Part shown: positions 40-52,553 of the stretch, piece after piece
How the letters are laid out: every line of letters starts with the position of its first letter
Numbering within the stretch: the stretch's first letter is position 1
Assembly: GCF_021502675.1 (NCBI RefSeq)
Contig: NZ_JAKFHA010000037.1
Coordinates: 1-64,000 of the forward strand
Source: Yinghuangia soli
GTDB lineage: Bacteria > Actinomycetota > Actinomycetes > Streptomycetales > Streptomycetaceae
Direction: 5' to 3'
DNA: 64,000 nt
Position numbers and translations under genes: made by a program
Notes under the pieces: generated by a model
The model's database searches: none
The model's input: only the letters and a program-made list of their open reading frames with translations
Told to the model about the DNA's origin: nothing

Positions 40-2388
40 TCAGCTGAGCGTGAGGGTCAGCGTCGCGGTGTACGTGCCGGCCAGCTGGAATCCCGGGACG
101 GTGACCGCGAGGTCGGCGTCCGCGGCGAAGACCCCGCCGGTCGGCTTGCCCGGCGTGGTGCTGTTGGCCGCGCTGCACAGCGCCGCGCCGCCGCCCACCG
201 GCCCGGTTCCGCCGGTGAGCACCGGGCTCGGCGAATCCGGGTTGGTCACCGCGCACTTGGGGGTCCAGGTGAGGGTGCCGGGCAGCACGCCGCCGGTCTC
301 CGAGCGGAAGTCGGTGATCCGGCCGGTCAGCGACCAGCCGAGCTGGCTGCCCCGGAAGTCCTCCACGGTGACCGTGTTGAGCTTGCCGGTCATCTGCTGC
401 GACTTGCCGTTGAGCACGACCGGGTTCAGGGTGACCCCCGCCGCGTTCTGCTTCATGGCCAGCGGGCCCGGGTTGATGACGCCGCCGTCCCCGCCGCCTT
501 CCACGGTGAACGGTGCGGCGGCCGCCTTGGCCTGGTCCACGCCCTCCGCCGCGGCGATCTGCGCGGTGTTGGCCTTGGTGACGGTGATCTGCCCGACGAA
601 GGTGCCGTCCGGGCCCGACTTCAGGAACGCGAGGTCCATGGTCGGCGCCTGCGCCGCGGTGATGCCGGCGATCGAGATGTCGGTGTTCGGCGCGTAGCCG
701 GTGCCGGTCACCGTCACGACGGTGCCCAGCGGCCCGTGGTTCGGGGTCAGCACGACCTGGCGCATGTTGGGCGGTGCCGGTTCCACGACCAGCGGCGCGA
801 TCGCGCTCGCCGTGCCCGCCGTCACCTTGACCGTGCGGGCCCCCGGCACCGCGGCCGAACTCACCGTGGCGGTACCGGTGAGCTTGCCGTCGGCCGCGAT
901 GGCCAGCGTGTTGTCCAGGAAGTCGGCCACGCTGCAGCCGCTGCCGTCCGCCGCGCACAGCTGGATCGAAGGCGCGGTGTTCGGCGTCCAGTTGCCGCCG
1001 CCGAGGGTGATCGGGTCGCCGGCCTTGACGGTGCCCGGCGTCGCGGTCAGCGTCGGCGCGGGCGGCACCGGGATGCCGACCTGTGCGGACGACGAGACGG
1101 CCGGCGTACCGGTCGCGGTGCACGGCGTGGTCTGCGCGATGAGCTTGAGCGAGTAGTCGCCCGGCGCCACCTCGATGCGGCCGTTCGCGGTGACCGGGAA
1201 GGTCCCGGTCATGTCCGACACCTGCACGACGGCCGGCGGCGCACCCGCACCCGGGTTCTTCTTCGGCCCGTTGACCGCGATGGTGCCGGTCTGCGCACCG
1301 GTCAGCTTGACCGTGCCGGACGGCGTGACCGTGTCGGCGAGCAGGATGACGCCCGGCATCTGCGGGTTGCGCGGGTAGTCCTTCCAGCGCCACGTCACGG
1401 TGACCTGGTCGCCCACGCTGTAGTACGGCTTCTCCGGGGAGAGTTCGAGCACGACCTTGGGCTTCCAGGCGAACGTCGCGCCGTTGGTCGCCTGCTTGCA
1501 GGACACGTCGTACGCGACCGGCTCGGCCCACGCGGGTGCGTTGTTGCGCACCTTGAGCGGGACCGCGACCGCGGTCGCACCGGACGTGATCCGGACCCGG
1601 TAGTCGCCCTCGGACAGCGTGGCCGGCACGCTTGCCCGGCCGGTCAGGTTGCCGTTGGCGTCCACCGCGAGGCCGGTGCCGGTGATCTTGGCGGGATCGC
1701 AGGCACTGCCGTCCGCGGCGCACAGTGCGGCGGACGGGGCGGCGCCGGACGGCCAGTTCGCGCCGAGCACCTGGAACGGCGCGCTGCCGGGCCGGACTTC
1801 GGAGCGGCTGAGGCCCAGCGAGGCGGGCTGGATCGAGCCGTCCACGGTCAGCGACGTGGAGACGCCGGGGGTGCCCGTGGTGTTGCACGGGGTCTCCCAC
1901 GTGCCCAGCTGGCTCGCCACGTTCTTGTAGCTGCCGGGCGCCAGGTTGATCACGCCGGGCTTGTTGACGGTGAAGGTGCCGGTCATGTTCGACAGCCACA
2001 GCTTCTGGCCGCTGGGCGTCGAGGCGTTCTTCTTGGGACCGGACACGCTCACCGTGCCGCCCTGCGCACCGGAGACGTTGACGGTGCCGAAGGGCTGGAC
2101 GGAGTCGGCGTTGACGGTGACGCTCGACGGGTTGGTGGCCGCGTCCTTCCACGTCCACGTGACGGTGACCTGGTCGCCCACCGCGTAGGTCGGCTTGCTC
2201 GGGCTGACCGTCAGGTCCACCTGAGCCAAGAAGTCGAACGGACTGCCGCCGACGCTCGGGGGCGTGCAGTGCACGTTGTACGCCACGGTCTGGGCCTGTG
2301 CGGCCGTCGTGCCCACCGTGACCACGGCCCCGACGGCCATGACGGCGGTGCCGAGTACCGCCGTCAGGGTCTTCGCGGGTTTGCGCAT
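40..2388 (-). CDS. Secreted modular surface protein with C-terminal WxL-like domain (782 aa)
   Basis: A secreted multidomain wall protein with no enzymatic motif. A signal peptide covers about residues 1-34. Two copies of a disulfide-type module follow (about 35-180 and 290-435, each with one early and one late Cys), alternating with two Ig-like modules (about 185-282 and 443-537) that share an LCAADGS-x-C stretch. An IPT/TIG-like module spans about 543-630. The last 140 residues resemble WxL domains, with the W-S-L motif at 685-687 and a second aromatic motif LTWTP near 706. WxL domains of Firmicutes bind peptidoglycan non-covalently; this function is inferred here. The ATG start was chosen because a GGAGGGACAG-type ribosome site precedes it and the signal peptide begins there; an upstream in-frame extension looks non-coding. 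It lies downstream of the related gene at 2666-3874. Confidence 0.85.
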   Translation of the reverse strand: MRKPAKTLTAVLGTAVMAVGAVVTVGTTAAQAQTVAYNVHCTPPSVGGSPFDFLAQVDLTVSPSKPTYAVGDQVTVTWTWKDAATNPSSVTVNADSVQPFGTVNVSGAQGGTVSVSGPKKNASTPSGQKLWLSNMTGTFTVNKPGVINLAPGSYKNVASQLGTWETPCNTTGTPGVSTSLTVDGSIQPASLGLSRSEVRPGSAPFQVLGANWPSGAAPSAALCAADGSACDPAKITGTGLAVDANGNLTGRASVPATLSEGDYRVRITSGATAVAVPLKVRNNAPAWAEPVAYDVSCKQATNGATFAWKPKVVLELSPEKPYYSVGDQVTVTWRWKDYPRNPQMPGVILLADTVTPSGTVKLTGAQTGTIAVNGPKKNPGAGAPPAVVQVSDMTGTFPVTANGRIEVAPGDYSLKLIAQTTPCTATGTPAVSSSAQVGIPVPPAPTLTATPGTVKAGDPITLGGGNWTPNTAPSIQLCAADGSGCSVADFLDNTLAIAADGKLTGTATVSSAAVPGARTVKVTAGTASAIAPLVVEPAPPNMRQVVLTPNHGPLGTVVTVTGTGYAPNTDISIAGITAAQAPTMDLAFLKSGPDGTFVGQITVTKANTAQIAAAEGVDQAKAAAAPFTVEGGGDGGVINPGPLAMKQNAAGVTLNPVVLNGKSQQMTGKLNTVTVEDFRGSQLGWSLTGRITDFRSETGGVLPGTLTWTPKCAVTNPDSPSPVLTGGTGPVGGGAALCSAANSTTPGKPTGGVFAADADLAVTVPGFQLAGTYTATLTLTLS

Positions 2389-2587
2389 AGAGAGCTGTCC
2401 CTCCTCGGGATCCGTGCCCGTCCCGCTCCTGGGTGAGCGGTCCGTGGAACACCGCAGGGAGTCCGCCGCGGAGACGCGGCGCCGGGATACCCCCCACGGC
2501 AGACGGCGGAGGACTCGTCCGGGGCACCGGTCGAGCAGAGGTCTGGCCGTCACCTCGGACCCGGTGCCCCACGCGCCGGGTCCGTGA

Positions 2588-2603
2588 CTGAAACACGTTT
2601 CAG
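2588..2603. promoter_or_regulatory. Inverted repeat CTGAAAC-AC-GTTTCAG upstream of the first WxL gene
   Basis: Perfect 7-bp arms separated by 2 bp, in an AT-rich patch about 200 bp upstream of the start at 2388. The central 14 bp match 12 of 14 positions of a site at 5640-5653, similarly placed upstream of another WxL-like gene. It is probably an operator; the regulator is unknown. Confidence 0.45.
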
Positions 2604-2665
2604 AAATGAGCTCCCCTATTGAGCGACGCGGGCGCCCGGAAGTCAAGATCTGGCGCGCGCCGGGC

Positions 2666-3874
2666 TCAGGTCAGGCTCAGCGTCAGGACGTACTCGCCGG
2701 CGCTGCCCGGCGGAAGCTGGAACGTCATTGCGGTGCCTGCCTGGTACTCGCCCCCGGTGACCTCCCCGGTGCTCGGGTTCTGCAGGCACAGCAGCACGGG
2801 CGAGGCGAGGGCGCCGTCGAACGGGCTGCCCGGCACGGCCCCGCTGCCCGGGGCCGCCGGGGCGCCGGTCCGGTCGCAGCTGGGCGTCCACTGCACGTGC
2901 CCGGGGCCAGGCTGCGCGGTGCTGCCGGCCGGCAGGCCCAACTGCCCGGTGAGCGACCAGCCGAGGGTGCTGCCGCGCTGGTCGAACACCGTCACCGGGT
3001 TGATGCGGCCGACCACGGTCCGGCTGCCGTTCTGCGCGGTGGCGGCGCCGATGTTCACGCCCTGGAGGCTCTGCGTCATGTACAGCGGCCCGGCCGGTGC
3101 CTCGGCGGGCAGTGGCGGCGGCAGGTCGAGGCTGCCGGGCCCGGCCGCGAGGTCGTCGCCCGTGGTTGCCGAGGCCGACGGAGAAGTCCCGCTGGGGGAG
3201 GGGGACTTGGAGCCCGCGGTCGCGCCGGGCGAGGCCGAGTTGCCCGGAGAGCTCGGGCCGGTCGTACTCGGCCCGGTGCCGCCCGGGCCGCCGGTGCTTC
3301 CACCGGTCCCGCCGCCCGGCGGCGGCGTCGCGGTGCCGGCCTGAAGGCTCGCCGACACGTTCAGCACACCCTTGGGGGTGCAGGTGGAGGCCTTGGTGGA
3401 GAGCGACGTCAGCAGCGAATAGGCGCCCGGCGCCAGGTCGATGCGGCCTTCCTTCTCCACGGTGAAGGTGCCGGTCATGTCCGCCACGTTCAGCGGCTGC
3501 GAGCCCCACGACGTCGGGTTGCCCTTGGGGCCGGCCACCGCGATGTCCTGGTTCTGCGCGCCCATCGCCTTGACCACGCCGGTCGGCGTGCTGCTGTTCA
3601 CGGCGACCACGACCCAGTTGGACGGGTTGCGCGGCGGCGTCTTCCAGCGCCACGTCACCGTCACCTTGTCGCCGATCGCGTACACCGCCTTCTGCGGTGC
3701 CACGACCAGGTCGATCTGCGGCTGCCAGTCGAAGTCCGGGCCGTTCCAGGGCGGCGGTACGCAGGTGACCGCATCGGTCACGACCGCGGCGCCGGCCGGC
3801 TGCGGCCCGGGGCCGATGCCGGCGGCGAGGACGGCCAGTGCGGCCGCGGCGAATCCGGTGCGCCGTGAAGCCAT
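2666..3874 (-). CDS. Secreted WxL-like surface protein, shorter paralogue (402 aa)
   Basis: A paralogue of the 782-residue protein downstream, with a simpler layout. It has a signal peptide (about 1-30) and one disulfide-type module (about 31-178, Cys38 and Cys165, sharing the GDKVTVTWRWK and DMTGTFTV stretches). A Gly/Pro/Ser/Thr-rich linker (about 180-260) leads to a WxL-like domain whose W-S-L motif is at 306-308. Location is expected to be extracellular and wall-bound. The second ATG was chosen because AGGGAG sits 10 bp before it; an upstream ATG at 3896-3898 has no such site. A 277-bp gap separates it from the next gene downstream, so the two could be one transcript or separate units. 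Its binding partner is unknown. Confidence 0.85.
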   Translation of the reverse strand: MASRRTGFAAAALAVLAAGIGPGPQPAGAAVVTDAVTCVPPPWNGPDFDWQPQIDLVVAPQKAVYAIGDKVTVTWRWKTPPRNPSNWVVVAVNSSTPTGVVKAMGAQNQDIAVAGPKGNPTSWGSQPLNVADMTGTFTVEKEGRIDLAPGAYSLLTSLSTKASTCTPKGVLNVSASLQAGTATPPPGGGTGGSTGGPGGTGPSTTGPSSPGNSASPGATAGSKSPSPSGTSPSASATTGDDLAAGPGSLDLPPPLPAEAPAGPLYMTQSLQGVNIGAATAQNGSRTVVGRINPVTVFDQRGSTLGWSLTGQLGLPAGSTAQPGPGHVQWTPSCDRTGAPAAPGSGAVPGSPFDGALASPVLLCLQNPSTGEVTGGEYQAGTAMTFQLPPGSAGEYVLTLSLT

Positions 3875-4643
3875 GCTGCAGACGCTCCCTTTCTGCATTG
3901 CCTTGTTGCCGTGCGCGTGCGGTCCGCAGTGCGGCGGCGGACGGGCCGGCCGCGGTGCGGTCGAATCCGGGCAGCCCTACTGACCCGGAGTCAAACAGCA
4001 ATTCACCCGGGTCCGCTGACGACGTGTCAAGCCCCTGCGGGGTGCGACCGGAACGGGACTTCGACCGGGGCAAAGTCATCGAACGCGGACACCGCGGGGC
4101 GGACGCAAGGCCGGATCGCGCCGGATCCGGGCCCCCGTCCGCGGCCTGTCTCCGGCCCCCTGTCCGATTCGCGTTGGTGACACGTGTCGATCGGCTCCAG
4201 GTCGCGGAACGGCTTTCAAACGCCTTGTCGATACACCGATTTCCCAGGTGGCGCGCGATGCCGAACCGTTTCCCGACACCGGTGTTTTTTCTGTCGATGA
4301 CTGTTGTTCGCTGATGTGACTTGTCGTACCGTCACCCCATGATCTGACATGCCATCAATGACTGGCACAGTCTTGATGTCTCTCGGGGTGCGGTGCCGAC
4401 GGGGTCTTCCAATATCAGAAGCCCAGGTCAGCGCGCCCAGGGCCTGTGCATTTGTGCGGGCCGTCGAGTCCGCTCCGGCTCCCGTGCGACCAGGCCGGCG
4501 CGGGTGGACGATCACGAACTCCGGTGCCCCGGAGCCGTGAACGGTCCGTGCAGGACGAGAAGGCCGGTGCGCAAAGGTCGAGCCACGCGCATGCCGCATC
4601 GGCCGTCGACTTACGACAGGCAAGTCCCCGAAGGGAGCACCAC
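3875..4643. other. 769-bp divergent intergenic region with several palindromes
   Basis: No gene is supported here. It separates a leftward and a rightward surface-protein gene and is clearly richer in A/T than the genes. It contains TGACGACGTGTCA (4017-4029), a perfect palindrome GACACGTGTC (4179-4188) and an inverted repeat at 4353-4378. Promoters for both genes must lie here, but no single -35/-10 pair is convincing. Confidence 0.6.
4353..4378. promoter_or_regulatory. Inverted repeat CATCAATGACT-GGCAC-AGTCTTGATG
   Basis: The ten-base arms pair fully except for one bulged T. It lies about 265-290 bp upstream of the LPKTG gene. The left half, CATCAATG, recurs at 5618-5625 about 255 bp upstream of the next gene, in both cases a few bases after CTGAC. 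This is a candidate operator or promoter element shared by the surface genes. Confidence 0.4.
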
Positions 4644-5447
4644 ATGGGCAAGTCCATCAAGCGGAGCGCGGGAGCGTTCGCGTCGCTCGCGGTGGCGTCC
4701 GGAGCCGTTCTGGCGATGGCCCCGCAGGCGTCCGCGGGCACCATCACCCCGACGCTGAAGTGCGTCGTGCCGGCGCTCGGCGAGGCCAACGGCCCGCAGT
4801 CCATCCAGGTCGACGTCACGCCGGCCTCCGCGGCCGCGGGTGCCAAGGTCAAGGTCAAGGTCACCACCGGCAACTCGCCGATCAAGGCGCCGATCGACGT
4901 CGGCCCCTCCAAGGTGACCCCGTCCATCACCTTCAAGCTCTCGAGCGGCGGCACCGCCACGGTGACCGGTGCCGAGCAGACCATCGACGTCAAGAAGGAC
5001 GTCCCGCAGAAGCTGGCGCCCTTCGAGGGCGACCTGACGATTCCGGCCGGCGCCTCCGGCAAGGTGGACCTGACGCCGGAGAAGATGGTCACCAAGACCA
5101 GCTTCGGCGACACGGTCTGCACGATCACCGGCGGCGGCGGCGTGGTCGCCAGCGTCACCGTCTCGGGCGGCGCCACGACCACCACCGGTGCGAACACGGC
5201 CGGCACCACGAGCCAGACGTCGAGCGGCACCACGAGCCAGACCTCGAGCGGCACCACCAGCCAGACGTCGGCCGGCACCACGAGCCAGAGCACGGCCGGC
5301 ACCACCGGCAGCAGCCTGCCCAAGACCGGCCCGCTCGACGACGCGCTCTCCATGGGCCTCGTCGGCGGCACGGTCGGCCTGCTGGGCATCGGCGCGGTCC
5401 TGATCGCCACCCGCAAGGTGCGCGCCTCGCGGAACAACGCCGTCTGA
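4644..5447 (+). CDS. Small LPXTG-type sortase-anchored surface protein (267 aa)
   Basis: A wall-anchored protein. The signal peptide (about 1-31) is followed by one disulfide-type module (32-175, Cys40 and Cys159) that resembles the N-terminal module of the next gene. A threonine/serine-rich stalk (about 176-223) is built from eight-residue GTTSQTSS-like repeats. The C-terminus is a textbook sorting signal: LPKTG at 225-229, a hydrophobic segment at about 237-256 and a basic tail (RKVRASR). A sortase should cleave between T and G and attach the protein to the wall; no sortase gene is in the window. The start has GAAGGGAG six bases upstream. Its position between WxL-like genes recalls Firmicutes surface clusters, in which a small LPXTG protein anchors WxL proteins. 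Confidence 0.9.
   Translation: MGKSIKRSAGAFASLAVASGAVLAMAPQASAGTITPTLKCVVPALGEANGPQSIQVDVTPASAAAGAKVKVKVTTGNSPIKAPIDVGPSKVTPSITFKLSSGGTATVTGAEQTIDVKKDVPQKLAPFEGDLTIPAGASGKVDLTPEKMVTKTSFGDTVCTITGGGGVVASVTVSGGATTTTGANTAGTTSQTSSGTTSQTSSGTTSQTSAGTTSQSTAGTTGSSLPKTGPLDDALSMGLVGGTVGLLGIGAVLIATRKVRASRNNAV
5202..5297 (+). repeat. Four tandem 24-bp units encoding the Thr/Ser stalk
   Basis: Units start at 5202, 5226, 5250 and 5274, and each encodes GTTSQ plus three residues. A degenerate fifth unit follows. The copies are near-identical in DNA, so copy number may vary between strains and change stalk length. Confidence 0.85.
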
Positions 5448-5466
5448 TCCACGCGGACTTCGAACA

Positions 5467-5503
5467 GTGCCGTCGGGCCCCTCGAGGGTGGGCCCGGCGG
5501 CAC
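5467..5503 (+). terminator. Hairpin terminator after the LPKTG gene
   Basis: Fourteen-base arms (5467-5480 and 5490-5503) with one G-U pair and a 9-base loop, 19 bp after the stop codon and followed by CGTTTCC. Confidence 0.75.
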
Positions 5504-5639
5504 CGTTTCCGCCTGTGCGAACCCGGTTTCCAAGATCGGACTTGTCCGGCCCGTCGGTGTATTACGCAACTGTTAACACAAGGCAGCTAAAGCCTTGACA
5601 TCTGCGGCACCTGACGGCATCAATGGCTCGCCTGGTTTT

Positions 5640-5653
5640 TGAAACAGGTTCCA
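5640..5653. promoter_or_regulatory. TGAAACAGGTTCCA, second copy of the operator-like element
   Basis: Matches the element inside 2588-2603 at 12 of 14 positions. It lies about 227-240 bp upstream of a WxL-like gene, much as the first copy does. Confidence 0.4.
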
Positions 5654-5879
5654 CCCGCACGTCGGTCCCGCGCACCTCTACCGGAAATACCCCCGGGGGC
5701 GCGAGGACCGCGAGACGGCCGCCTCGGCCGTGTGCGACGGAATTACGAGGCGACCGTCCCAGGACGGCACCGGAGCACCTGAGCCCATGGTAGTGCGCTC
5801 TCGATGCGACTCCGGTGTGGTGTTCGACTGCCCCGCCCCCCGGCGGCGGCAGCAGCCCCTGGAAGGGAGTAGCACCTCA

Positions 5880-7193
5880 ATGTTCAACTCCAGCAAGAAG
5901 GTCGCGGCAGTCGCCGGGGCCGTGGCGATCGGGTCGTTCGGCCTGGTCGCGCTGGCGCCCACCGCGTCGGCCGGCACCGTGACGCCGTCGGTCACCTGTG
6001 TGGCCCCGGCGCCGATCGGCACCAAGACCGCGCCGATGTCGATGACGGTCACCGACCTGACGAACGCGGGCCCCTACGCCCCGGGCGCCACCGTGCGTCT
6101 GAAGGTCGACCCGGGCCTGAGCCCGATCGGCAGCCCGTTCCCGCTGCCCAAGGTCGACCTGACCAGCACCTTCAAGTTCGGCCTCTCGGGTGCCTACACG
6201 GGCAACCAGGAGTGGGTCGTCCAGAAGTACATGGACCCGCTGCCGACCGGCCAGATCGACGCCGACCCGTTCGAGGTCGACTACGTGATCCCGGTCAGCG
6301 CCACCCCCGGTGGTCAGCTGGACCTGACGTGGCTGGACCTGAACAACAAGACCATCTCGGACGGTACCGACTTCGGCACCGTGCCGTGCACCCCGGGTGC
6401 GAACAACGGCGTGGTCCTGAGCCTCGCCGTCAAGAACGTCCCGCCGCCGGCGCAGGTCGAGAGCCTCTCCCCGAACAAGGGCGAGCTGCCGGTCAACGTC
6501 ACGGTGTCGGCGAAGAACTACACCCCGGGTGCCACCGTGACGATCCTGGGCCTCGCGGGCCAGGCGCCGACCGGTGACGCGATCCAGGCGACGGTGGGTG
6601 CCGACGGCAAGGTCTCCGGCGTCCTGACCGTCACCAAGGACAACACCACGATGATCGCGGTGTCCGAGGGCCTCCCGCCCGCGAACAACGCAGGTCTGCC
6701 CTTCACGGTCATCCCGTCGAGCAAGCCGGGCGACCTGGACCAGACCCCGGGCGGTGACGTTCTCCCGGGTCCGCTGGCGATGCAGCAGGCCAGTGCGGGT
6801 GTGACGCTGTCGCCGATCACGATCAACGGTAAGCCCCAGACGATGACCGGTGTGCTGAACACCGTCGCGATCCAGGACTTCCGTGGTTCGACCAAGGGCT
6901 GGTCGCTGACCGCCAAGACGTCCGACTTCACCTCGGACACCGGCGGCACCATCTCGAAGTCGTCGTTCAAGTGGACCCCGAACTGCACCGTGACCAACCC
7001 GGACTCGCCGTCCGCGGTGAAGTCGGGTGCGAACGCGGTGGTCGACAACTCCACGCTGTGCTCGCAGGACGCCAAGGGCGCCGGCCAGGTCACCGGTGGC
7101 GAGTTCGCCGGCAACGCGGCCTTCACCCTTGCTGTTCCCTCGTTCCAGCTGGCCGGTACCTACACCGCCAAGGTGACCCTCTCGCTCTCCTGA
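5880..7193 (+). CDS. Secreted WxL-like surface protein (437 aa)
   Basis: Third WxL-like protein of the cluster. The signal peptide is about 1-31. Next is the disulfide-type module (about 32-185, Cys40 and Cys170) related to that of the LPKTG protein. An IPT/TIG-like module (about 192-278, VESLSPNKGELP onward) is followed by a WxL-like domain (about 297-437). The W-S-L motif is at 341-343 and the second motif, FKWTPNC, near 363. The C-terminal 140 residues align closely with those of the 782-residue protein at the left end, including TNPDSPS and FQLAGTYTA. The start has GGAAGGGAG about 10 bp upstream. Function is probably in the wall layer; no catalytic residues are seen. Codon bias is typical of the host, so there is no sign of recent transfer. 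Confidence 0.88.
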   Translation: MFNSSKKVAAVAGAVAIGSFGLVALAPTASAGTVTPSVTCVAPAPIGTKTAPMSMTVTDLTNAGPYAPGATVRLKVDPGLSPIGSPFPLPKVDLTSTFKFGLSGAYTGNQEWVVQKYMDPLPTGQIDADPFEVDYVIPVSATPGGQLDLTWLDLNNKTISDGTDFGTVPCTPGANNGVVLSLAVKNVPPPAQVESLSPNKGELPVNVTVSAKNYTPGATVTILGLAGQAPTGDAIQATVGADGKVSGVLTVTKDNTTMIAVSEGLPPANNAGLPFTVIPSSKPGDLDQTPGGDVLPGPLAMQQASAGVTLSPITINGKPQTMTGVLNTVAIQDFRGSTKGWSLTAKTSDFTSDTGGTISKSSFKWTPNCTVTNPDSPSAVKSGANAVVDNSTLCSQDAKGAGQVTGGEFAGNAAFTLAVPSFQLAGTYTAKVTLSLS

Positions 7194-7215
7194 GCGGAAC
7201 CGGGAACGGCCCGTC

Positions 7216-7240
7216 GTCCCATGCCTTTTGGGAATGGGAC
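7216..7240 (+). terminator. Hairpin terminator after the third WxL-like gene
   Basis: GTCCCAT and ATGGGAC arms (7216-7222, 7234-7240) enclose an 11-base loop that contains TTTT, 22 bp after the stop. Confidence 0.6.
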
Positions 7241-7285
7241 GCGGGCGTCCCTTGACTTCTCCGGTGCCGGCTGGCCAACTATGAC

Positions 7286-7309
7286 GAACTCGTTGGTTAG
7301 AACGAGTTC
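7286..7309. promoter_or_regulatory. Perfect 9-bp inverted repeat GAACTCGTT-N6-AACGAGTTC
   Basis: The arms at 7286-7294 and 7301-7309 are separated by GGTTAG, about 150 bp before the small secreted protein gene. The AT-rich symmetric layout suggests an operator for a dimeric regulator rather than a terminator, since no gene end is adjacent. Confidence 0.45.
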
Positions 7310-7460
7310 TACTGTGCCAGTCGGTATCGGGGGAGCCGGAACGCATGGCAGTTCATTCGGCATGGGCGCATTCGGCCCGGCCTCCCGATTTTCGGCGCGC
7401 AGGCAATTCCTGCACTTCGTGTTCCATGTCCGAGAACCGCGAGACTGCCAGGGAGAATCC

Positions 7461-7937
7461 ATGCGTATGCGAAAGCTAGTGGCGTCGTTGGCCGTTGCCG
7501 GGGGAACTGTCGCCGCGTTGGGGATGGCCGCACCGTCGGCGTCCGCGACCGTCTACAGCTGCGCCACTCCGAGTGCGACGTCGATCGACCCGAACACGAC
7601 GGGCAACGCCTGCCTGATCGTGGGCAACAGCAACGAGCTCATCGGCAGCAGCTGGCTGTCCTTCAAGAGTGCGACGCCCTCCGCGTGGTCGTTCTGCGGC
7701 TGGTACCAGATCATCGTCAAGGTCAACCCGAACGGGTCGGAGGAGACGGTGTCGGAGATGCCGGCCGCAGGCTGCCTGACCGCGGCCCAGACGAGCGGCA
7801 GCGTCGGCGGGTACACCCCGCAGGCCGCCTCCGTCCCCGGCGGCTCGTACCGGGTCAAGCTCGGTATCTGGGCCACGTACGGGAGCGCGAGCACCCTGGA
7901 GATCGTTTCGGTGAGCCCCACGCTGACCGTCAGCTGA
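7461..7937 (+). CDS. Small secreted four-cysteine protein of unknown function (158 aa)
   Basis: Not recognised as a known family. A clear signal peptide (basic MRMRK, hydrophobic core, cleavage near residue 29 after ASA) leads a mature domain of about 128 residues. It contains four cysteines (34, 51, 79, 105), probably two disulfides, in a small beta-rich fold suggested by alternating hydrophobic residues. There is no transmembrane or sorting signal, so the protein should be released or loosely wall-associated. CAGGGAG lies 6 bp before the ATG. It closes the surface-protein cluster and may function with the WxL-like proteins, but this rests only on position. Confidence 0.85.
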   Translation: MRMRKLVASLAVAGGTVAALGMAAPSASATVYSCATPSATSIDPNTTGNACLIVGNSNELIGSSWLSFKSATPSAWSFCGWYQIIVKVNPNGSEETVSEMPAAGCLTAAQTSGSVGGYTPQAASVPGGSYRVKLGIWATYGSASTLEIVSVSPTLTVS

Positions 7938-7952
7938 GCAACCTGCACGGAG

Positions 7953-7984
7953 CGGGCGGGCTCCGCGGTGCCGGAGCCCGCCCG
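7953..7984 (+). terminator. Hairpin terminator after the small secreted protein gene
   Basis: Thirteen-base perfect arms (7953-7965 and 7972-7984) with a 6-base loop, beginning 15 bp after the stop codon. Confidence 0.75.
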
Positions 7985-8165
7985 GCGTGCGTCCGGAGCG
8001 GGTGACGGAGCGGGTGACGGAGCGTGAGGGGAGATCATCCGGCTGTCCGGCATTTGCGGAAGTTGTCACGAGATCTTGCGGTATTTCCGTTCCTGACAGG
8101 CGTTCCGCGCGCATTCCGGGCGCACGGGTACGGGGCAGGTGCGGGACCCGCGTGCCGAAGAGTTC

Positions 8166-8171
8166 TACGAT
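8166..8171 (+). promoter_or_regulatory. Putative -10 box TACGAT giving a leaderless transcript
   Basis: TACGAT ends 6 bp before the ATG of the response regulator and no ribosome site is present. Transcription would therefore start at or next to the A of the start codon. No clear -35 box is seen. Confidence 0.5.
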
Positions 8172-8177
8172 CGGGCC

Positions 8178-8849
<672 letters not shown>

Positions 8850-8888
8850 CCGAAGCGCCTCGGAAGGACACCAGGAACGGCTGCATCC

Positions 8889-10151
8889 GTGCGTCGCAGG
8901 CTCATCAACACCACCCTCGGCGTGGTGCTCGTCGTGGTGGCCGTGCTCGGCATCCCGCTGGCATTCGTCGAGACCAACGCGATCGAGACCACCGCTCGCG
9001 ACAATCTCAAGGCGGAGGCCGCGCGGCTCCTGGAGACCGTCGAGCTGCGCCTCGCCGCGGGCGAGGAGCCGGACGTCGCGCTGCTGGCCCGCCAGGTCAC
9101 CGGCCCCCGGTACGCCACCATCGCGCTGCCCGGCCGCCCCCCGCTGGAGTTCGGCGCCAAGCCGGAGGGCAAGTCCTTCGACGTGACGATGACGGGCGAA
9201 TTCGGCGAGACGGTGACCGTCTCGGAGTCCCGGGACCGCGTCACCCGCCAGGTCCGCGAGTCGCTCCTGCTGATCCTCGGCGTCGCACTGCTTGCGGTGG
9301 CCGCCGCGACCGCCCTCGCGGTCTGGCAGGCCCGCCGCCTGGCCCGCCCGCTCACCGACCTCGCGGAGACCGCCGAGCGGCTCGGCTCCGGCGACCCGCG
9401 CCCGCGGCAGCGCCGCTACGACGTGCCCGAGCTGGACCGGGTCGCCGAGGTGCTGGACCAGAGCGCCGAGCGCATCGCCCGCATGCTGACCGCCGAGCGG
9501 CGGCTGGCCGCGGACGCCTCGCACCAGCTCCGCACCCCGCTCACCGCGCTGTCGATGCGGCTCGAGGAGATCATCGCCACCGAGGACCCGGCCATCGTCA
9601 AGGAGGAGGCGGCCATCGCCCTCTCCCAGGTGGAGCGGCTGACCGATGTGGTGGAGCGGCTGCTGACGAGCAGCCGCCGCGGCCCGGCCGGCCGCGACCC
9701 GCGGACCGCGTCCGCAGTGACCGTCCGGGTCGACGACGTGGTCCGCCAGCAGGTCGACGAGTGGCGGCCCGCGGTGGCCGGCGCGCACCGGGCCATCCGG
9801 GTGGCCGGCGAACCGGGCCTGGAGGCGGTCGCCACCCCGGGCGCGCTCGCGCAGGTGCTGGCCACGCTGCTGGAGAACGCGCTCATGCACGGCGACGGCA
9901 CGGTGACCATCCGGACCCGCCGTACCGGCACCTCGGTGGTCGTGGAGGTCGAGGACGAGGGCACCGGCGTCTCCGACGTGCTCGGCGCCCGGGTCTTCGA
10001 GCGCGCGGTCAGCGGCCGGAACTCCACGGGTCTCGGCCTCGCGGTGGCCCGGGACCTGGCCGAGGCGGACGGCGGCCGCCTGGAGCTGCTGCAGCTGCGG
10101 CCGCCGGTGTTCGCGGTCTTCCTGGGCGCCAAGCCGCGCGACCCGGAGTAG
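8889..10151 (+). CDS. Membrane sensor histidine kinase (420 aa)
   Basis: Partner kinase of the regulator just upstream. TM1 spans about 8-27. An extracytoplasmic sensor loop of about 95 residues follows, then TM2 (about 124-148), a HAMP linker (about 150-200) and a HisKA domain with His212 in DASHQLRTPL. The HATPase_c domain has an N-box (LENALMHGDG), a G1 box (VEDEGTGV) and a G2 box (STGLGLAVA). The GTG start is the first one giving a short basic N-terminus before TM1. The sensor loop is too small for a known ligand-binding fold, so the stimulus is unclear. The gene ends 21 bp before a converging gene. Confidence 0.95.
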   Translation: MRRRLINTTLGVVLVVVAVLGIPLAFVETNAIETTARDNLKAEAARLLETVELRLAAGEEPDVALLARQVTGPRYATIALPGRPPLEFGAKPEGKSFDVTMTGEFGETVTVSESRDRVTRQVRESLLLILGVALLAVAAATALAVWQARRLARPLTDLAETAERLGSGDPRPRQRRYDVPELDRVAEVLDQSAERIARMLTAERRLAADASHQLRTPLTALSMRLEEIIATEDPAIVKEEAAIALSQVERLTDVVERLLTSSRRGPAGRDPRTASAVTVRVDDVVRQQVDEWRPAVAGAHRAIRVAGEPGLEAVATPGALAQVLATLLENALMHGDGTVTIRTRRTGTSVVVEVEDEGTGVSDVLGARVFERAVSGRNSTGLGLAVARDLAEADGGRLELLQLRPPVFAVFLGAKPRDPE

Positions 10152-46847: not shown

Positions 46848-48716
46848 TCAGCCCACGCAGCTCTTGTCGTCCGCGGTGTTCTGCTGCAGTTCCTCAGCCG
46901 TGGGCGGCTTCGGGGCCTGCGACGCGGGAGGCTGCTGCGGGGGCTGCGAGGCAGGTGCCCCGGTCCCCGGTTTGCCGGACCTGGTCGGGGTCTTCGCCGG
47001 CGCCGGATCATTGAGGCCGGGGAAGTCGAGTCCGATGACGACTTCGAAGGTGGTGGCAGTGGCCGAGGCCGCCTCCTCCAATGCGGTCACCGGTATGCCG
47101 ACGGCAGCGGCGAGTTGCCGGGCCGCGTCCTGTTTGCCCTTGGGGTAGACCACCGAGCTGTTCGCCCGGACCGTTGCCGACTTCGCCTGATCGGGCTTGG
47201 CCTTGTAGCCCGCGGCGGACAATTGGGTCGCCACGGCTTGAGCCTTGGGCACGTTGGTCGTGTTGCGCACCGAGACCGTCATGGTGGCCGGGTCGACGGT
47301 GGGCGGCGGCGGTTCGGTCTGCGCCGGCGGCTCGTTCGAGGCGATCGGCTGGGCAGGGGCGGTGGGATCGCCCTTGGTGAACGCGACATCACCACGGATT
47401 GCCGCCCACAGGTTGTTGGCCTGAGGCTGCTTGGGCTGCACACGGTTCGTGTTCGCGGGGTAAGGCTCGTACGGCAGCGTGGTGAACGCCATCCGTTTCT
47501 CGGGCACCTTCTTGATCTCCTGGCCGAGGTCCACCAGCTTCTCCAGGCGGTTCAGCCCCTCGTCCACCTTGATGTTGCCGGTCGCGGCCTGCGCGATCTT
47601 GAAGAGCGCGGCCGGGTCCTTCCAGGTCGCGCTGGTCTTGATCTCCCGGGCGAGCGCCATCATGAACTTCTTCTGGCCTTCGATGCGGGCCAGGTCGCTC
47701 TCCGCCGGGTAGACGTGCCGGGCCCGCAGGAACTGCAGGGCCGATTCGCCTTCCAGAGTCGCCACCCCGGGACCGACGTCCAGTCCGGTGCCGCCCTCCT
47801 TGTCGACCGGATCGTGCATCCGGCGGCAGAAGTTCAACGGCACACCGCCGACGGCCTTGGTCATCTCCTTGACGCCGTTGAATTCGATCATCAGCCAGTG
47901 GTCGATCTGGACGCGGAGCATGCGCTCGACAGTGGCGACCGTGCAAGGCGGACCGCCGGGCTTGAGCAGGCTCTCGTTGAACATGACCAGTTCCCGGGCC
48001 GGCTGTGTCTTCTTGCCTCCGTCATACAGACAGGGCGGCTGGTAGACCATCGTGTCGCGCGGGATGCTGACCACCGTCGCATTGGAGCGGTCTGCCGACA
48101 GGTGCAAGAGCAGCGTGGTGTCGGCGTGGCCCTCCTGGCCCTTCAAGCCGTATTTGGTGTTGCCTTCGCCGATGCGGCTGTCCGAGCCGATGAGCAGGAT
48201 GTTCATCTGCTTCCGGCCCTTTTCGTCCTTCTCGGCCGGTGCCACGCGGTCCGGGTCGGCGCTGTGCTTGTCCGTCTGGATCCGGCTGTTGAGGTACTCG
48301 TAGTAGCCGTAGAGGGAACCGGCCAGCACCAGGAGGATCAGGCCGAGGGATATCGCCGTGCGTTTCAGGCGGCGTTTGGCCTTGCTCCGCGGCGGAGGTG
48401 CGGTCCGGGTGGCGCGGCGGCCAGGGGAGCGCACGGGCTCGGATTCCGGTTCCGGTTCGGAGGCGTACGCGGACTCGTCCTCGGGGTCGTCGTCGCCGTA
48501 GTAAGCGTCGCGGTCCGGCTCCTGGGCGGCAGCCCCGGCGGCGGTCTCGTCCGGGGTGCGCAGCCGGTAGGACCCGGTGTCCGGGTCCATGACCCACATG
48601 TCGGCGATGTCCGCGTCGTCCAGCGCCCCCAGCCCGCCGTCGCGCTGCTGCGGTACCCGCTGCTGGTCGTGCTGCGGATCGTACGGTCCCTGCGGACGTC
48701 GGTGCCCTGAAGCCAT
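46848..48716 (-). CDS. LCP ligase with LytR_C and C-terminal Cys tail (622 aa)
   Basis: A cytoplasmic N-terminus of about 115 residues contains the motif LDDADIADMWVMDPDTG, shared with the next LCP protein. One membrane helix follows (about 122-145). The LCP domain (about 170-400) has LLIGSDSRIGEG, VSIPRDTMVY, FNESLLKPGGPPCTVATVERM, FLRARHVYPAESDLARIEGQ and AREIKTSATW. A LytR_C-like domain (MTVSVRNTTNVPKA onward) and a Pro/Gln-rich linker end in ADDKSCVG. The ATG of MASGHR was chosen for spacing from GGAGGGG; another ATG three codons upstream is possible. It is last of four head-to-tail LCP genes. Confidence 0.93.
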   Translation of the reverse strand: MASGHRRPQGPYDPQHDQQRVPQQRDGGLGALDDADIADMWVMDPDTGSYRLRTPDETAAGAAAQEPDRDAYYGDDDPEDESAYASEPEPESEPVRSPGRRATRTAPPPRSKAKRRLKRTAISLGLILLVLAGSLYGYYEYLNSRIQTDKHSADPDRVAPAEKDEKGRKQMNILLIGSDSRIGEGNTKYGLKGQEGHADTTLLLHLSADRSNATVVSIPRDTMVYQPPCLYDGGKKTQPARELVMFNESLLKPGGPPCTVATVERMLRVQIDHWLMIEFNGVKEMTKAVGGVPLNFCRRMHDPVDKEGGTGLDVGPGVATLEGESALQFLRARHVYPAESDLARIEGQKKFMMALAREIKTSATWKDPAALFKIAQAATGNIKVDEGLNRLEKLVDLGQEIKKVPEKRMAFTTLPYEPYPANTNRVQPKQPQANNLWAAIRGDVAFTKGDPTAPAQPIASNEPPAQTEPPPPTVDPATMTVSVRNTTNVPKAQAVATQLSAAGYKAKPDQAKSATVRANSSVVYPKGKQDAARQLAAAVGIPVTALEEAASATATTFEVVIGLDFPGLNDPAPAKTPTRSGKPGTGAPASQPPQQPPASQAPKPPTAEELQQNTADDKSCVG

Positions 48717-48771
48717 GCCGTGCATCCCCTCCCCGGCGCTGTTCCTCGGCGGTCCGCGGGCGCAGGACCGG

Positions 48772-48780
48772 AAAGTGTCC
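48772..48780 (-). promoter_or_regulatory. GACACTTTC element upstream of LCP gene
   Basis: Read on the minus strand, GACACTTTC occurs about 56 bp upstream of the start at 48716. The same 9-mer occurs at 50738-50746 upstream of the next LCP gene, in both cases preceded by GG. This is a candidate shared promoter or regulator site. Confidence 0.35.
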
Positions 48781-48828
48781 CTTTCGACCCGCCCGCGGAC
48801 CGTCCATGAGCCAAAAGCGGTGCCCTGC

Positions 48829-50664
48829 CTACCTCTTCTTTCCGGTCGAGATGCAGGACGTGTTGTCCGCAGTGTTGAGCTTGAGCTCCTCGGCCGGCGG
48901 GACCGCGATCGGCGGTGCCGAGGCCGCGGTGGTGCCGGGGGCGCCCGCCGTTGTGCCCTTGGTGGGCGCGGCGCCGGTGAGCCCGGGGAAGTCCGAGCCG
49001 ATGACCAGCTCGAACGTGCTGCCCGCCGCGGTGCTTTCCTCGATCGCCAGCGGCGACATGCCGACCGCGGCGGCGATCTGCTTGGCCGTGTCGGCCTTGC
49101 CCTTCGGGTACTTGACGACGCTGTTGTCGCGCGGCGTACCGCTGTTCGCGGTGTCCGCCGTCGCCTTGTACTTCAGCTCGGTCAGCTGAGTGGCGACCGC
49201 CTTGGCCTTCGGGTACTTGGTGGTGTTGCGGACCGTGACCCGGACCGTGGACGGGTCGACGGTGGGCGGCGCCGGCGGGGCGGCGACCGGTGTCTCGGGA
49301 GCCGCGCCGGGCACGGGTGCGGCCGGATCGCCCTTGGTCACGGCGGTGTCGGTGCGCAGCGCTTCCCACAGCTTGTTGGCATCGGGCTGGCGCTGCTGGA
49401 CCCACGCCTCCGGGTTCCCCGGGTAGGGCTCGATCGGCAGCGTGGTGAAGGCCATCCGCTTCTCGGGGACCTTCTTGATCTCGTTGCCGAGCCCCACGAG
49501 CTTGTTGATGCTGCCGAGGCCCTTGTCGACCTGCAGGTTGCCGGTGGCCGCCTGGGCGATCCCGATCACCGCGGCCGGGTCCTTCCAGGTCGCGCTGGTC
49601 TTGATCTCGCGCGCGAGGGCCATCAGGAAGCTCTTCTGCGCCTCGATGCGGGCCAGGTCGCTGCCGTCGCCGAAGGCGTGCCGGGCGCGCAGGAACTGCA
49701 GCGCGTCGTTGCCTTCCAGGCGCTGCGGCCCGGCGGGCAGCTTCAGGCCGGTGCCGCCCTGCTTGTTCGGGCGTACGGGGTCGTTGATCGGCTCGCACAG
49801 ATTGATCGGGACGCCGTCGACCGCCTTGGTCATCTCCTTGACGCCCTTGAAGTCGATCATCAAGTAGTGGTCGACCTGGACGCCGAGCATGCGCTCGACC
49901 GTGGCGACGGTGCACGGGGCTCCGCCGGGTGCCCGGAGCGTGGTGTTGAACTGCACCTTGTTCGTGGACGCCGGCTGTACGCCCTTGTCGTACTTGCACG
50001 ACGGGCGGTCGACCATCGTGTCGCGCGGGATGCTGACCATCGTCGCGTTCGAGCGGTCCGCGGACAGGTGCATCAGGATCGTGGTGTCGGCCAGGCCCTC
50101 GTGGCCCTTGTCGCCGTACCCGGTGTTGCCTTCGCCGACCCGGGTGTCGGAGCCGATCAGCAGAATGTTGAGCGGTACCCGGCCGAACTCGTCGGCGGCC
50201 GCCTTGGGCACCTCGTTGGCGCCGCTTCGCTCGGTCTTCTTGATGCGGTTGTTGAGGTACCAGTAGTAGCCGTATGCGGCCCCGGCTATGACCACCAGGA
50301 CGACGGCCAGGCCTATCGCGGTCCACTTGAGCCGCTTCTTGGCCTTGCTCCGCGGCGGCGGCGCGGCGGCCGCGGCCGTCCGGCGCGAGGTCCGCGGTTC
50401 GACGTCCGGTTCGCTGCGCTGCGGCGCGACGGTACGCGCCCGCGAGCCGCCCGCGCTGCCCGCGGAGTCGCGGTAGAGCGAGGCGAACGGGTCGTCGTCG
50501 TCGGGTTCGCCGCGGCGCGGTGCCGGGGCGGCCGGGCCCGGCGAGCGGAGCTGGTAGTTGCCGGTGTCCGGGTCCATGACCCACAGGTCGGCGACGTCGG
50601 CGTCGTCGAGGCCGTCGAACTCGTTGTCCGACTGGCCGTGCCTGGGCGCGTTGCGTGCGTTCAC
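48829..50664 (-). CDS. LCP ligase with LytR_C and C-terminal Cys tail (611 aa)
   Basis: Close paralogue of the downstream LCP protein. The N-terminal motif is LDDADVADLWVMDPDTG and the membrane helix is about 116-137. The LCP domain has LLIGSDTRVGEG, VSIPRDTMVD, APCTVATVERMLGVQVDHYLMI and FLRARHAFGDGSDLARIEAQ, followed by a LytR_C domain (VRVTVRNTTKYPKA onward). The tail is ADNTSCIS plus a basic GKKR. The near-identical gene order and motifs show recent tandem duplication. The GTG start has GGAGGGG 9 bp upstream. A minus-strand GACACTTTC element lies about 75 bp upstream. Confidence 0.94.
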   Translation of the reverse strand: MNARNAPRHGQSDNEFDGLDDADVADLWVMDPDTGNYQLRSPGPAAPAPRRGEPDDDDPFASLYRDSAGSAGGSRARTVAPQRSEPDVEPRTSRRTAAAAAPPPRSKAKKRLKWTAIGLAVVLVVIAGAAYGYYWYLNNRIKKTERSGANEVPKAAADEFGRVPLNILLIGSDTRVGEGNTGYGDKGHEGLADTTILMHLSADRSNATMVSIPRDTMVDRPSCKYDKGVQPASTNKVQFNTTLRAPGGAPCTVATVERMLGVQVDHYLMIDFKGVKEMTKAVDGVPINLCEPINDPVRPNKQGGTGLKLPAGPQRLEGNDALQFLRARHAFGDGSDLARIEAQKSFLMALAREIKTSATWKDPAAVIGIAQAATGNLQVDKGLGSINKLVGLGNEIKKVPEKRMAFTTLPIEPYPGNPEAWVQQRQPDANKLWEALRTDTAVTKGDPAAPVPGAAPETPVAAPPAPPTVDPSTVRVTVRNTTKYPKAKAVATQLTELKYKATADTANSGTPRDNSVVKYPKGKADTAKQIAAAVGMSPLAIEESTAAGSTFELVIGSDFPGLTGAAPTKGTTAGAPGTTAASAPPIAVPPAEELKLNTADNTSCISTGKKR

Positions 50665-50737
50665 GACCCGCTTCCCCTCCCGGCTACCTGTGGTTCGGCA
50701 TGCGCAGCTCCCCGGTCGCGCGTTGCTCGTGCGTACG

Positions 50738-50746
50738 AAAGTGTCA
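50738..50746 (-). promoter_or_regulatory. GACACTTTC element upstream of the second tandem LCP gene
   Basis: Identical 9-mer to that at 48772-48780, about 74-82 bp before the start codon at 50664, within TAGGGTGACACTTTCG on the minus strand. Confidence 0.35.
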
Positions 50747-50768
50747 CCCTAGCGGCCGCTTCCCGGCT

Positions 50769-52553
50769 TCATGAGCACACGTCCTGGTCCACTGTGCGAC
50801 CGGTGACGGTGACTATCGGGCCGGTCGGGACCGGTACCGCGGTGGTCGCCCCGGAGCTGGGCGAACTGCCGTCGGTCGGCGCCGCGGTGGCGTCCGGCGA
50901 TGCGGACCCGGAGGGGTCGGCGGTGCCGGTCGGCGAACTGCTGCTGCCGTCGGTCTCGGCGGTCGGGGAAGTGCCGGCCCGGGGAGTGCGGGACGGTACG
51001 CCGGGCTGCGCCTTCCCGGTGGGCGTGCTGCCCGGCCGCAGGGTCGCCGGGCCATCGCCGTCGGGGTCCGCGGTGCCGGTGGACGTGCCGTCGCCGGGCG
51101 TGCCGCCCGGGGGCTCGTCGGGCAGCACCGGGTTCGGGTCGTCGATCCGGACCGAGCCGCTGTCCTCCACGCCGTCGCCGTCCGCGTCGACCCCGGGTTC
51201 GGGCTTGCCGACCGCGACGCGGTCGTAGCGGATCGCGGTGAACAGCGCGTCGGCCTCCGGTTGGACCAGCTCGTCGCGGTTGGTGTTGTACCGGTACTGC
51301 TGCCGCGGCACGGTCAGGAACGCGGACTTGTCGGACGGGATGCCCGAGACGCTCTTGGAGAGCTTGGTCAGCTCGTCGAGCGAGTCCAGCCCCGGGTCGG
51401 CGGTGATGGAGCGCGTGCCGGCGTCCAGCAGGCTGTACAGCTTGATCGGGTTGAACAGCACGCCGTTGGACTGCACCTTGTTGAACAGCGAAGCGAGGAA
51501 GCGCTGCTGGCGGACCATGCGCTGGGTGTCGCTGCCGTCGCCGAGGTTCTTGCGGGCCCGGACGTACGCGAGCGACTCCTCGCCGTCGAGCTCCTGGCGC
51601 CCGGCCGGCAGGTCGAGCTTCGCGGCCCGGTCGCGCAGCGGCTCGTCCAGGCACACCTCGACGCCGTCCACCGCGTCGACCATGCGCTTGAAGCCGGTGA
51701 AGTCGATGACGATGTGGTGGTCGATCTGCACCTGCGTCATCTGCTCCACGGTCTTGATCGTGCAGGCCGAGCCGCCGATCTCGAACGCGTGGTTGAACTG
51801 GTCCTTGTAGGCGCGCGAGGTGGTGCCGTCGTCGCGCACGCAGGACGGGATCTGGACCATCAGGTCGCGCGGGATGCTCACCGCGACCGAGCTCTTCCGG
51901 TCCGCGGAGAGGTGCAGCAGGATCGTGGTGTCGGAGCGCTTGGTGCCCTCGCCGATGTCGCCGTACTCGATGTTCTCGCCGGTCCGGTCGTCCGATCCCA
52001 TCAGCAGGATGTTGACCGCGCCGTAAGCCTCGGGCATCACCGGCGGCCGGGACGGGCCGATCTTCTCCGCCACGTACTCGGTGGTGATGTTGCCGTCGAG
52101 CTGCCGGTAGAGCACGAACGCGGTCACCCCGGCCGCGGTGGCCAGCACCGCCATCGCGACCGCCATGCTGATCAGCACACGCCGCCAGCGCCGCTTGCGG
52201 CGGGCCGGGTGCGCGATGAGCACGGGGGCGGCGGGCAGGACGGTCTCCTCCGGCGCGGCTGCGGCGGGCTCGGCCGCGGGCGCCGGTACGGGCTCGGACG
52301 CAGGGACCGCCTCGGCAGCGGGCTCGGGGGTGGCCTCGGCTGCGGGCTCGGCCGCGACTGCAGCCTCGGATGCCTCCGGTTCGGCCGCCGGCTCGGCGCT
52401 CGCTGCGGCCTCGTCGTTCTCCGCCGCATCCGCGGGCGGGACCTCGGGCACGGTCGGCTCCCCGGATGCGGCGGTCTCCGCCGGATCCGGACCTGCCGTA
52501 CTCGGGTCCTGCTCGCTGCTGGCCACCAGGTTCCGCTCCCTGCCGTGCGACAT
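50769..52553 (-). CDS. LCP ligase with long disordered tail and calcium-like loop (594 aa)
   Basis: An Ala/Glu/Pro-rich cytoplasmic N-terminus (about 1-115), a membrane helix (about 126-148) and an LCP domain (about 180-395). Key motifs are LLMGSDDRTGENIEYG, VSIPRDLMVQ, SACTIKTVEQMTQVQIDHH and YVRARKNLGDGSDTQRM. No LytR_C domain is present. Instead there is a DADGDGVED loop like those of EF-hand/TSP3 repeats, then about 100 Ser/Thr/Pro/Gly-rich residues ending VDQDVCS. The first ATG is used; a GTG ten codons later is better spaced from GGGAG. A perfect Crp-type site lies 103-118 bp upstream. Confidence 0.92.
   Translation of the reverse strand: MSHGRERNLVASSEQDPSTAGPDPAETAASGEPTVPEVPPADAAENDEAAASAEPAAEPEASEAAVAAEPAAEATPEPAAEAVPASEPVPAPAAEPAAAAPEETVLPAAPVLIAHPARRKRRWRRVLISMAVAMAVLATAAGVTAFVLYRQLDGNITTEYVAEKIGPSRPPVMPEAYGAVNILLMGSDDRTGENIEYGDIGEGTKRSDTTILLHLSADRKSSVAVSIPRDLMVQIPSCVRDDGTTSRAYKDQFNHAFEIGGSACTIKTVEQMTQVQIDHHIVIDFTGFKRMVDAVDGVEVCLDEPLRDRAAKLDLPAGRQELDGEESLAYVRARKNLGDGSDTQRMVRQQRFLASLFNKVQSNGVLFNPIKLYSLLDAGTRSITADPGLDSLDELTKLSKSVSGIPSDKSAFLTVPRQQYRYNTNRDELVQPEADALFTAIRYDRVAVGKPEPGVDADGDGVEDSGSVRIDDPNPVLPDEPPGGTPGDGTSTGTADPDGDGPATLRPGSTPTGKAQPGVPSRTPRAGTSPTAETDGSSSSPTGTADPSGSASPDATAAPTDGSSPSSGATTAVPVPTGPIVTVTGRTVDQDVCS

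Follow-up and report, generated by a model that had tools for sequence, protein, structure and literature searches.

The best described relatives of the genes considered here are the Csc/WxL clusters of Bacillota, known to date mostly from bacteria of gut and food, and portrayed in the literature mainly as machinery of gut commensals; in one survey, 91% of known WxL sequences belonged to that phylum (PMC9772566). The WxL domains of Bacillota bind peptidoglycan non-covalently (PMC5817068). For the DUF916 protein WxLIP, three roles have been proposed: supplying a strand to complete the sandwich of the WxL domain, binding to host cells, and insertion of its helix into the host membrane (PMC10599100). 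DUF916 genes have been noted in passing near another actinobacterial family (PMC12537917), and the literature we searched, which left most subscription journals outside, yielded no paper on WxL-WxLIP clusters in Actinomycetota. Here we describe a gene cluster at the extreme left end of draft contig C31 of Yinghuangia soli (genome of 9.7 Mb in 91 contigs), lying within an analysed stretch of 64,000 nucleotides, bases 1-64,000 of C31, that we call the window. The cluster is probably the left half of an actinobacterial form of the Csc-type WxL-WxLIP-sortase complex. An earlier note on this DNA had proposed an actinobacterial relative of the Bacillota Csc clusters with a module order of its own, a proposal well supported by Pfam and profile matches, by a confident predicted fold and by WxLIP linkage in related genomes. 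The domain families are already known and covered by Pfam; what is new is the actinobacterial form of the cluster.

WxL domains of three secreted proteins

Three large secreted proteins, encoded by genes A (2388-40, minus strand, 782 residues), B (3874-2666, minus strand, 402 residues) and D (5880-7193, plus strand, 437 residues), carry a C-terminal WxL domain, delimited by a local profile and alignment in A (43-471, minus strand) and B (2669-3094, minus strand) and as an AlphaFold2 all-beta domain in D (6765-7190, plus strand). In the profile search that the earlier note had put forward as a check, D and A exceed the cut-off of 25 bits for the Pfam WxL family (PF13731; 30.7 bits, E 4.1e-7, and 26.7 bits, E 6.5e-6, respectively), and B is recognised through the local WxL profile and through its alignment with A and D across the whole WxL domain, with every motif residue retained. 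Profile-profile comparison with a Bacillota set, composed of plasmid-borne WxL proteins from Pontibacillus and Terribacillus, returns a probability of 97.4%, which becomes 98.5% once the set also includes other actinobacterial sequences. Matches to PF13731 above the curated cut-off are found at seven places in this genome and, among 14 control genomes, only in Lactococcus lactis.

The C-termini of A, B and D follow the pattern D-x-R-G-S-x-x-G-W-S-L ... W-T-P-x-C. The first motif, D-x-R-G...G-W-S-L, shows no variation across ten sequences (A, B, D and seven loci of relatives), and its Asp at W-8 and Arg at W-6, present in A, B, D and relatives, match the first WxL motif described for Bacillota (PMC9772566). 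The earlier note had seen three domains with W-S-L and, as the second WxL motif, W-T-P. Both motifs are indeed present in all three proteins, but W-T-P does not hold the place assigned to it: in the alignment with Bacillota, the distal motif YXXX(L/I/V)TWXLXXXP (PMC5817068) falls on the C-terminal YTAKVTLSLS in D and YTATLTLTLS in A, which are the true counterparts. These two stretches, like YVLTLSLT, have Leu for Trp and end without the terminal P. The same distal Trp is also missing from other Actinomycetota and from one Bacillaceae sequence, and the present group has gained W-T-P-x-C and, at LC, another conserved cysteine.

Structure prediction, another check suggested in that note, gives a confident all-beta fold for the WxL domain of D (pLDDT 94.6, pTM 0.85). 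A sequence search of the PDB with gene D found no meaningful relative, and the neighbours of the model in the PDB, as returned by Foldseek, include CfaB, FimG, CsuA/B and other pilins. Pilins of this kind have an incomplete fold that is completed by a strand of a partner. The top Foldseek matches of the model, GH123 hydrolases, were rejected as a guide to function (rmsd above 8, small TM-scores).

These results bear on the possibility that the proteins are freely secreted, with nothing but a shared beta-sandwich, of no function at the surface, behind their WxL-like resemblance. The secretion signals, taken alone, are compatible with such an arrangement, and Bacillota WxL proteins occur both at the surface and in the medium (PMC5817068). 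It is nevertheless highly improbable in view of the curated Pfam matches, the profile match to Bacillota WxL domains, and the linkage to WxLIP and sortase substrates.

WxLIP on contig C72 and the probable order of the locus

The earlier note had also reported the absence of a DUF916 protein. This is true of the first 12,000 positions of the window, where Pfam detects no DUF916 gene, but not of the genome, which has two WxLIP genes (DUF916, PF06030; cut-off 27.3 bits), one on contig C72 (38.0 bits) and one on C17 (30.4 bits), nor of relatives, in which such genes lie inside the orthologous cluster. The location of the window cluster at the end of a draft contig bears on genes that appear to be absent from it. 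Contig C72 (8.9 kb) encodes, in this order, a WxLIP, a small WxL protein, an LAPTG protein, an LAKTG protein, a protein combining the two-cysteine module discussed below (MOD) with a transmembrane segment (MOD-TM), and a WxL protein, D', whose gene runs off the contig end. The small WxL protein of about 261 residues is also present in genomes G198, G201 and G214 and has no counterpart in the window itself. With one WxLIP and two WxL genes, C72 qualifies as a Csc/WxL cluster in its own right, whereas the window by itself holds three WxL genes and no WxLIP.

The right end of C72 is identical to 227 nucleotides inside gene D (6753-6979, unstranded), likely a point of assembly break or collapse. 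Upstream of this stretch D and D' clearly differ (75% overall). Contigs that an assembler has broken at a repeat typically end in this way. In Yinghuangia seranimata (Streptomycetaceae), the nearest named relative found, one contig ends with A, B, an LPKTG gene and a cut D-like WxL gene, and another starts with the WxLIP, followed by small WxL, LAHTG, LAKTG and MOD-TM genes and by genes for a response regulator (RR) and a histidine kinase (HK). The one-contig Yinghuangia genome G214 has B, C, WxLIP, small WxL, LAKTG, a MOD protein, RR and HK contiguously, and in G201, a genome of the Embleya group, a WxL gene lies immediately upstream of the WxLIP. Judging from this break and these gene orders, C72 very probably belongs between D and E, the junction in D possibly being a mixture of D and D'. 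The full locus would then probably read A-B-(divergent)-C-D-[WxLIP, small WxL, LAPTG protein, LAKTG protein, MOD-TM protein, D']-E-RR-HK, with the bracketed block now on C72 because D and D' have an identical WxL stretch.

The right-hand part of this order is visible in the window, where the response regulator (8139-8849, plus strand) and its partner, the sensor histidine kinase (8889-10151, plus strand), have 84-98% and 64-91% identity, respectively, to orthologues in seven other genomes. These genomes (Y. seranimata, G214, G201 of the Embleya group, G199, G224, G292 and G219) span Yinghuangia, the Embleya group and other Streptomycetaceae genera, the label Embleya for group g151 being our own provisional assignment. 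Since the orthologues close the WxL-WxLIP cluster in all seven, the pair is part of the conserved locus, and from this linkage we infer that it regulates the cluster. The set thus does not close with gene E, as had been supposed, but continues beyond 7937 and takes in the two-component system at 8139-10151.

Alternatively, the window cluster could be a real satellite without a WxLIP of its own, served in trans from separate loci on C72 or C17, with no gap in the assembly. The contig does read smoothly from D through E into RR-HK, and the solitary WxL genes elsewhere in this genome (on C1, C9, C21, C30 and C88) indicate that Yinghuangia does have WxL proteins with no WxLIP encoded beside them. 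However, C72 breaks exactly within the stretch identical to D, its gene order is that of the block adjoining RR-HK in Y. seranimata and G214, and the two break points recur in the contigs of Y. seranimata. We consider a satellite improbable and prefer a single locus interrupted in the assembly.

The leader DNA upstream of D (window 5820-5880) is near-identical to that upstream of D' (L021, about 7770-7825). A search of Rfam with the first 12 kb of the window and four cluster loci gave no match, and so no riboswitch was found behind this common leader. On C17, the same genome carries a second set of WxL, LPKTG-MOD, WxLIP and MOD-TM genes (L023 6065-11327).

The two-cysteine module and the proposed envelope complex

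The module MOD spans about 145 residues, has two conserved cysteines and is N-terminal in A, where it occurs twice (MOD1, 1852-2289, and MOD2, 1090-1521, both minus strand), in B (3347-3781, minus strand), in C (4740-5153, plus strand) and in D (5976-6416, plus strand). It is also present in WxL, sortase-type and membrane proteins of relatives; by counts that are rough, some loci being truncated and one sorting signal out of the 20 doubtful, it is found in 61 of the 99 distinct WxL reading frames above 200 residues in the loci and in 20 sortase-type proteins. The module of C is predicted to be all-beta (AlphaFold2, pLDDT 90.8, pTM 0.83), and no family in Pfam or NCBIfam covers MOD. Foldseek returned nothing below E 0.001, and scattered matches to arrestin, CBM22 and xylanase, with TM-scores near 0.3 and no convincing relative among them, were not used to assign function.

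The proteins carrying MOD differ in what follows it. Gene A encodes a signal peptide, MOD1, an Ig-like stretch, MOD2, Ig-like/TIG-like stretches and the WxL domain; in B a Pro/Ser/Gly linker, and in D a TIG/Ig-like stretch, joins the signal peptide and single MOD to the WxL domain. Gene C (4644-5447, plus strand) encodes a secreted sortase substrate of 267 residues, comprising a signal peptide, MOD, a Thr/Ser stalk, LPKTG, a hydrophobic stretch and a basic tail; the LPKTG motif (5316-5330, plus strand) lies 38 residues ahead of the C terminus in the sequence. The description of C as a small LPKTG protein is therefore correct as to the sorting signal but not as to size, because 267 residues with a folded module exceed the 90-140 residues of the short LPXTG protein CscD (PMC1534035), a frequent though not obligatory member of Bacillota clusters. 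In NCBIfam, C matches EF0750_LPXTG only, weakly and far under the cut-off. Identity to the Y. seranimata orthologue is 74% for A, 44% for B and 68% for C. Gene E (7461-7937, plus strand) encodes a small secreted protein of 158 residues with exactly four cysteines, in agreement with the earlier description. Two distant four-cysteine secreted relatives of E stand in tandem (L173, L174) on a WxLIP-bearing contig of the Embleya-group genome G231.

All five secreted-protein genes originally claimed are confirmed, with likely starts, signal peptides throughout and a clear Shine-Dalgarno sequence in each, gene B perhaps excepted; signal peptides and sorting signals were called by pattern, with no trained predictor, and genes outside the window by a simple GC-frame script. 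An open reading frame of 384 residues overlying C and a minus-strand one of 166 residues over E (7553-8053) were dismissed as shadow frames, since a signal peptide and a Shine-Dalgarno sequence accompany the plus-strand proteins and both C and E have relatives. The genome has thirteen sortase places, none inside the window. Farther along the window, positions 48001-52000 show a strong negative AT skew (-0.30 and -0.24).

Among 200 sampled Streptomycetaceae genomes, this one excluded, 73 have both WxL and WxLIP, 6 have WxLIP only, 3 have WxL only and 118 have neither. The profile used in the DUF916 searches was built from the C72 and C17 proteins. In 42 hand-listed pairs, picked for adjacency, the gap between WxL domain and the peptidoglycan-binding domain PGBD measures 108-439 nucleotides (median 228). 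The family often shows the order MOD-LPXTG, MOD-WxL, WxLIP, MOD-LAXTG, to which RR-HK is added in some genera. Across the phylum PF06030 occurs in 28 of 296 genomes, in several of them with an adjacent WxL gene. The streptomycete WxLIPs have about 150 residues between PGBD and the C-terminal helix, and in 66 of 71 distinct WxLIPs the net charge directly after the helix is +2 or more. About 12 WxL places are present in Y. soli; further WxL genes on C9, C21, C30 and C88 have no WxLIP nearby, and on C1 (L018 8219-10105) a WxL domain just under the cut-off (24.6 bits) is fused to Abhydrolase_10 (E 8e-138), an enzyme apparently displayed by its WxL anchor.

By the positive-inside rule, the basic charge after the WxLIP helix favours the bacterium's own membrane over insertion into a host membrane (PMC10599100), and it is on this ground that we propose a membrane-to-wall complex displaying MOD through non-covalent, covalent and membrane anchors. 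The C-terminal helix and basic tail would fix the WxLIP in the membrane of the bacterium itself, while the PGBD of the WxLIP and the WxL domains would hold peptidoglycan. The WxL domain would accept a WxLIP strand that completes the beta-sandwich, so that the large WxL proteins would be held non-covalently at the wall surface, and sortases would join the LPXTG and LAXTG proteins covalently to the wall. Most arms would present the same MOD to the outside, where its role would probably be adhesion, or the binding of glycans, among hyphae or toward substrates. The neighbouring two-component system may tune expression to envelope or surface conditions.

It is also conceivable that the streptomycete WxL-like domain serves for WxLIP docking only and does not bind peptidoglycan, the large proteins being tethered via WxLIP to the membrane and not to the wall. 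The lost distal Trp would suit this arrangement, as would the near-obligate pairing with a WxLIP that has a basic stop-transfer tail, and the strand-complementation proposal (PMC10599100) taken with the pilin-like fold. Strong conservation of the first motif, D-x-R-G...GWSL, argues in the opposite direction, and Bacillota WxL domains bind walls in trans, according to a passage of PMC5817068 that cites Brinster 2007. The Trp pair is moreover reported as buried, without ligand contact (PMC9772566), so the loss need not affect wall binding. Overall, docking alone seems to us rather unlikely, and we retain the wall-binding complex.

Several observations nonetheless weigh against interpreting the locus as a Csc-type complex. 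The distal Trp is lost and gene B has no match to PF13731, for which reasons the WxL binding surface may have changed here. The weak similarity of the predicted fold to pilins (TM 0.4-0.5, rmsd above 5) makes strand complementation a lead and not a demonstration. DUF3324 (HBD) is unseen by Pfam in streptomycete WxLIPs at E 0.1. The Fisher p of about 3e-43 for WxL-WxLIP co-occurrence ignores the kinship of the genomes and consequently overstates the evidence. Finally, C72 could be a locus separate from C31, and its left end has no sequence in common with the window.

Comparison with described systems

Tentatively, and as a possibility that falls short of likely, we suggest a widespread Streptomycetaceae envelope system in which a single beta-rich MOD would be carried on three anchors (strand-completed WxL on membrane WxLIP, LPXTG/LAXTG sortase linkage and membrane helices) under a dedicated two-component system. 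Streptomycetaceae are mostly soil bacteria. If the suggestion is true, the presence of these genes in hyphal bacteria of soil would imply that WxL-WxLIP had an origin other than the binding of animal hosts, and the joint between WxL and the membrane WxLIP would represent pilin-like strand complementation in Gram-positive envelopes. The occurrence of paired WxL and WxLIP in over a third of the sampled Streptomycetaceae genomes, together with the basic tails, makes the host-membrane proposal (PMC10599100) testable; distribution and tails favour an own-membrane anchor and, as the ancestral role, a part in building the envelope. Wall binding, WxL-WxLIP pairing and regulation are open to study in laboratory strains of Streptomyces.

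The likeness to chaperone-usher pilins (CfaB, FimG, CsuA/B) consists of the Foldseek neighbourhood of the WxL model and a proposed parallel, an incomplete Ig-like fold with a partner strand. In contrast to pilins, the WxL domain comes with weak TM-scores, no sequence similarity and no chaperone or usher, and the comparison is an analogy, not a family assignment. With the WxLIP of PMC10599100 (DUF916-DUF3324-TM), the proteins of C72, C17 and relatives share the PF06030 PGBD, the C-terminal helix and adjacency to WxL genes; they differ in that Pfam does not detect the HBD (DUF3324), in the basic tail after the helix, and in their occurrence in a mostly soil family as opposed to gut symbionts.

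The closest correspondence is with the Csc/WxL clusters of Bacillota (CscA-D; PMC1534035, PMC9772566), which likewise bring together large proteins with C-terminal WxL domains, a small WxL protein, sortase substrates and a WxLIP (DUF916) with signal peptide and C-terminal helix, and which keep D-x-R-G ahead of the first W-x-L. Unlike them, the streptomycete clusters have WxLIPs in which DUF3324 is not recognised, Leu in place of the distal Trp, sorting-signal proteins of about 230-650 residues as against 90-140, with both LPXTG and LAXTG signals, a common two-cysteine N-terminal module and an adjacent two-component system. The module, the loss of the distal Trp, the LPXTG and LAXTG partners and the linked two-component system are read as the marks of an actinobacterial variant.

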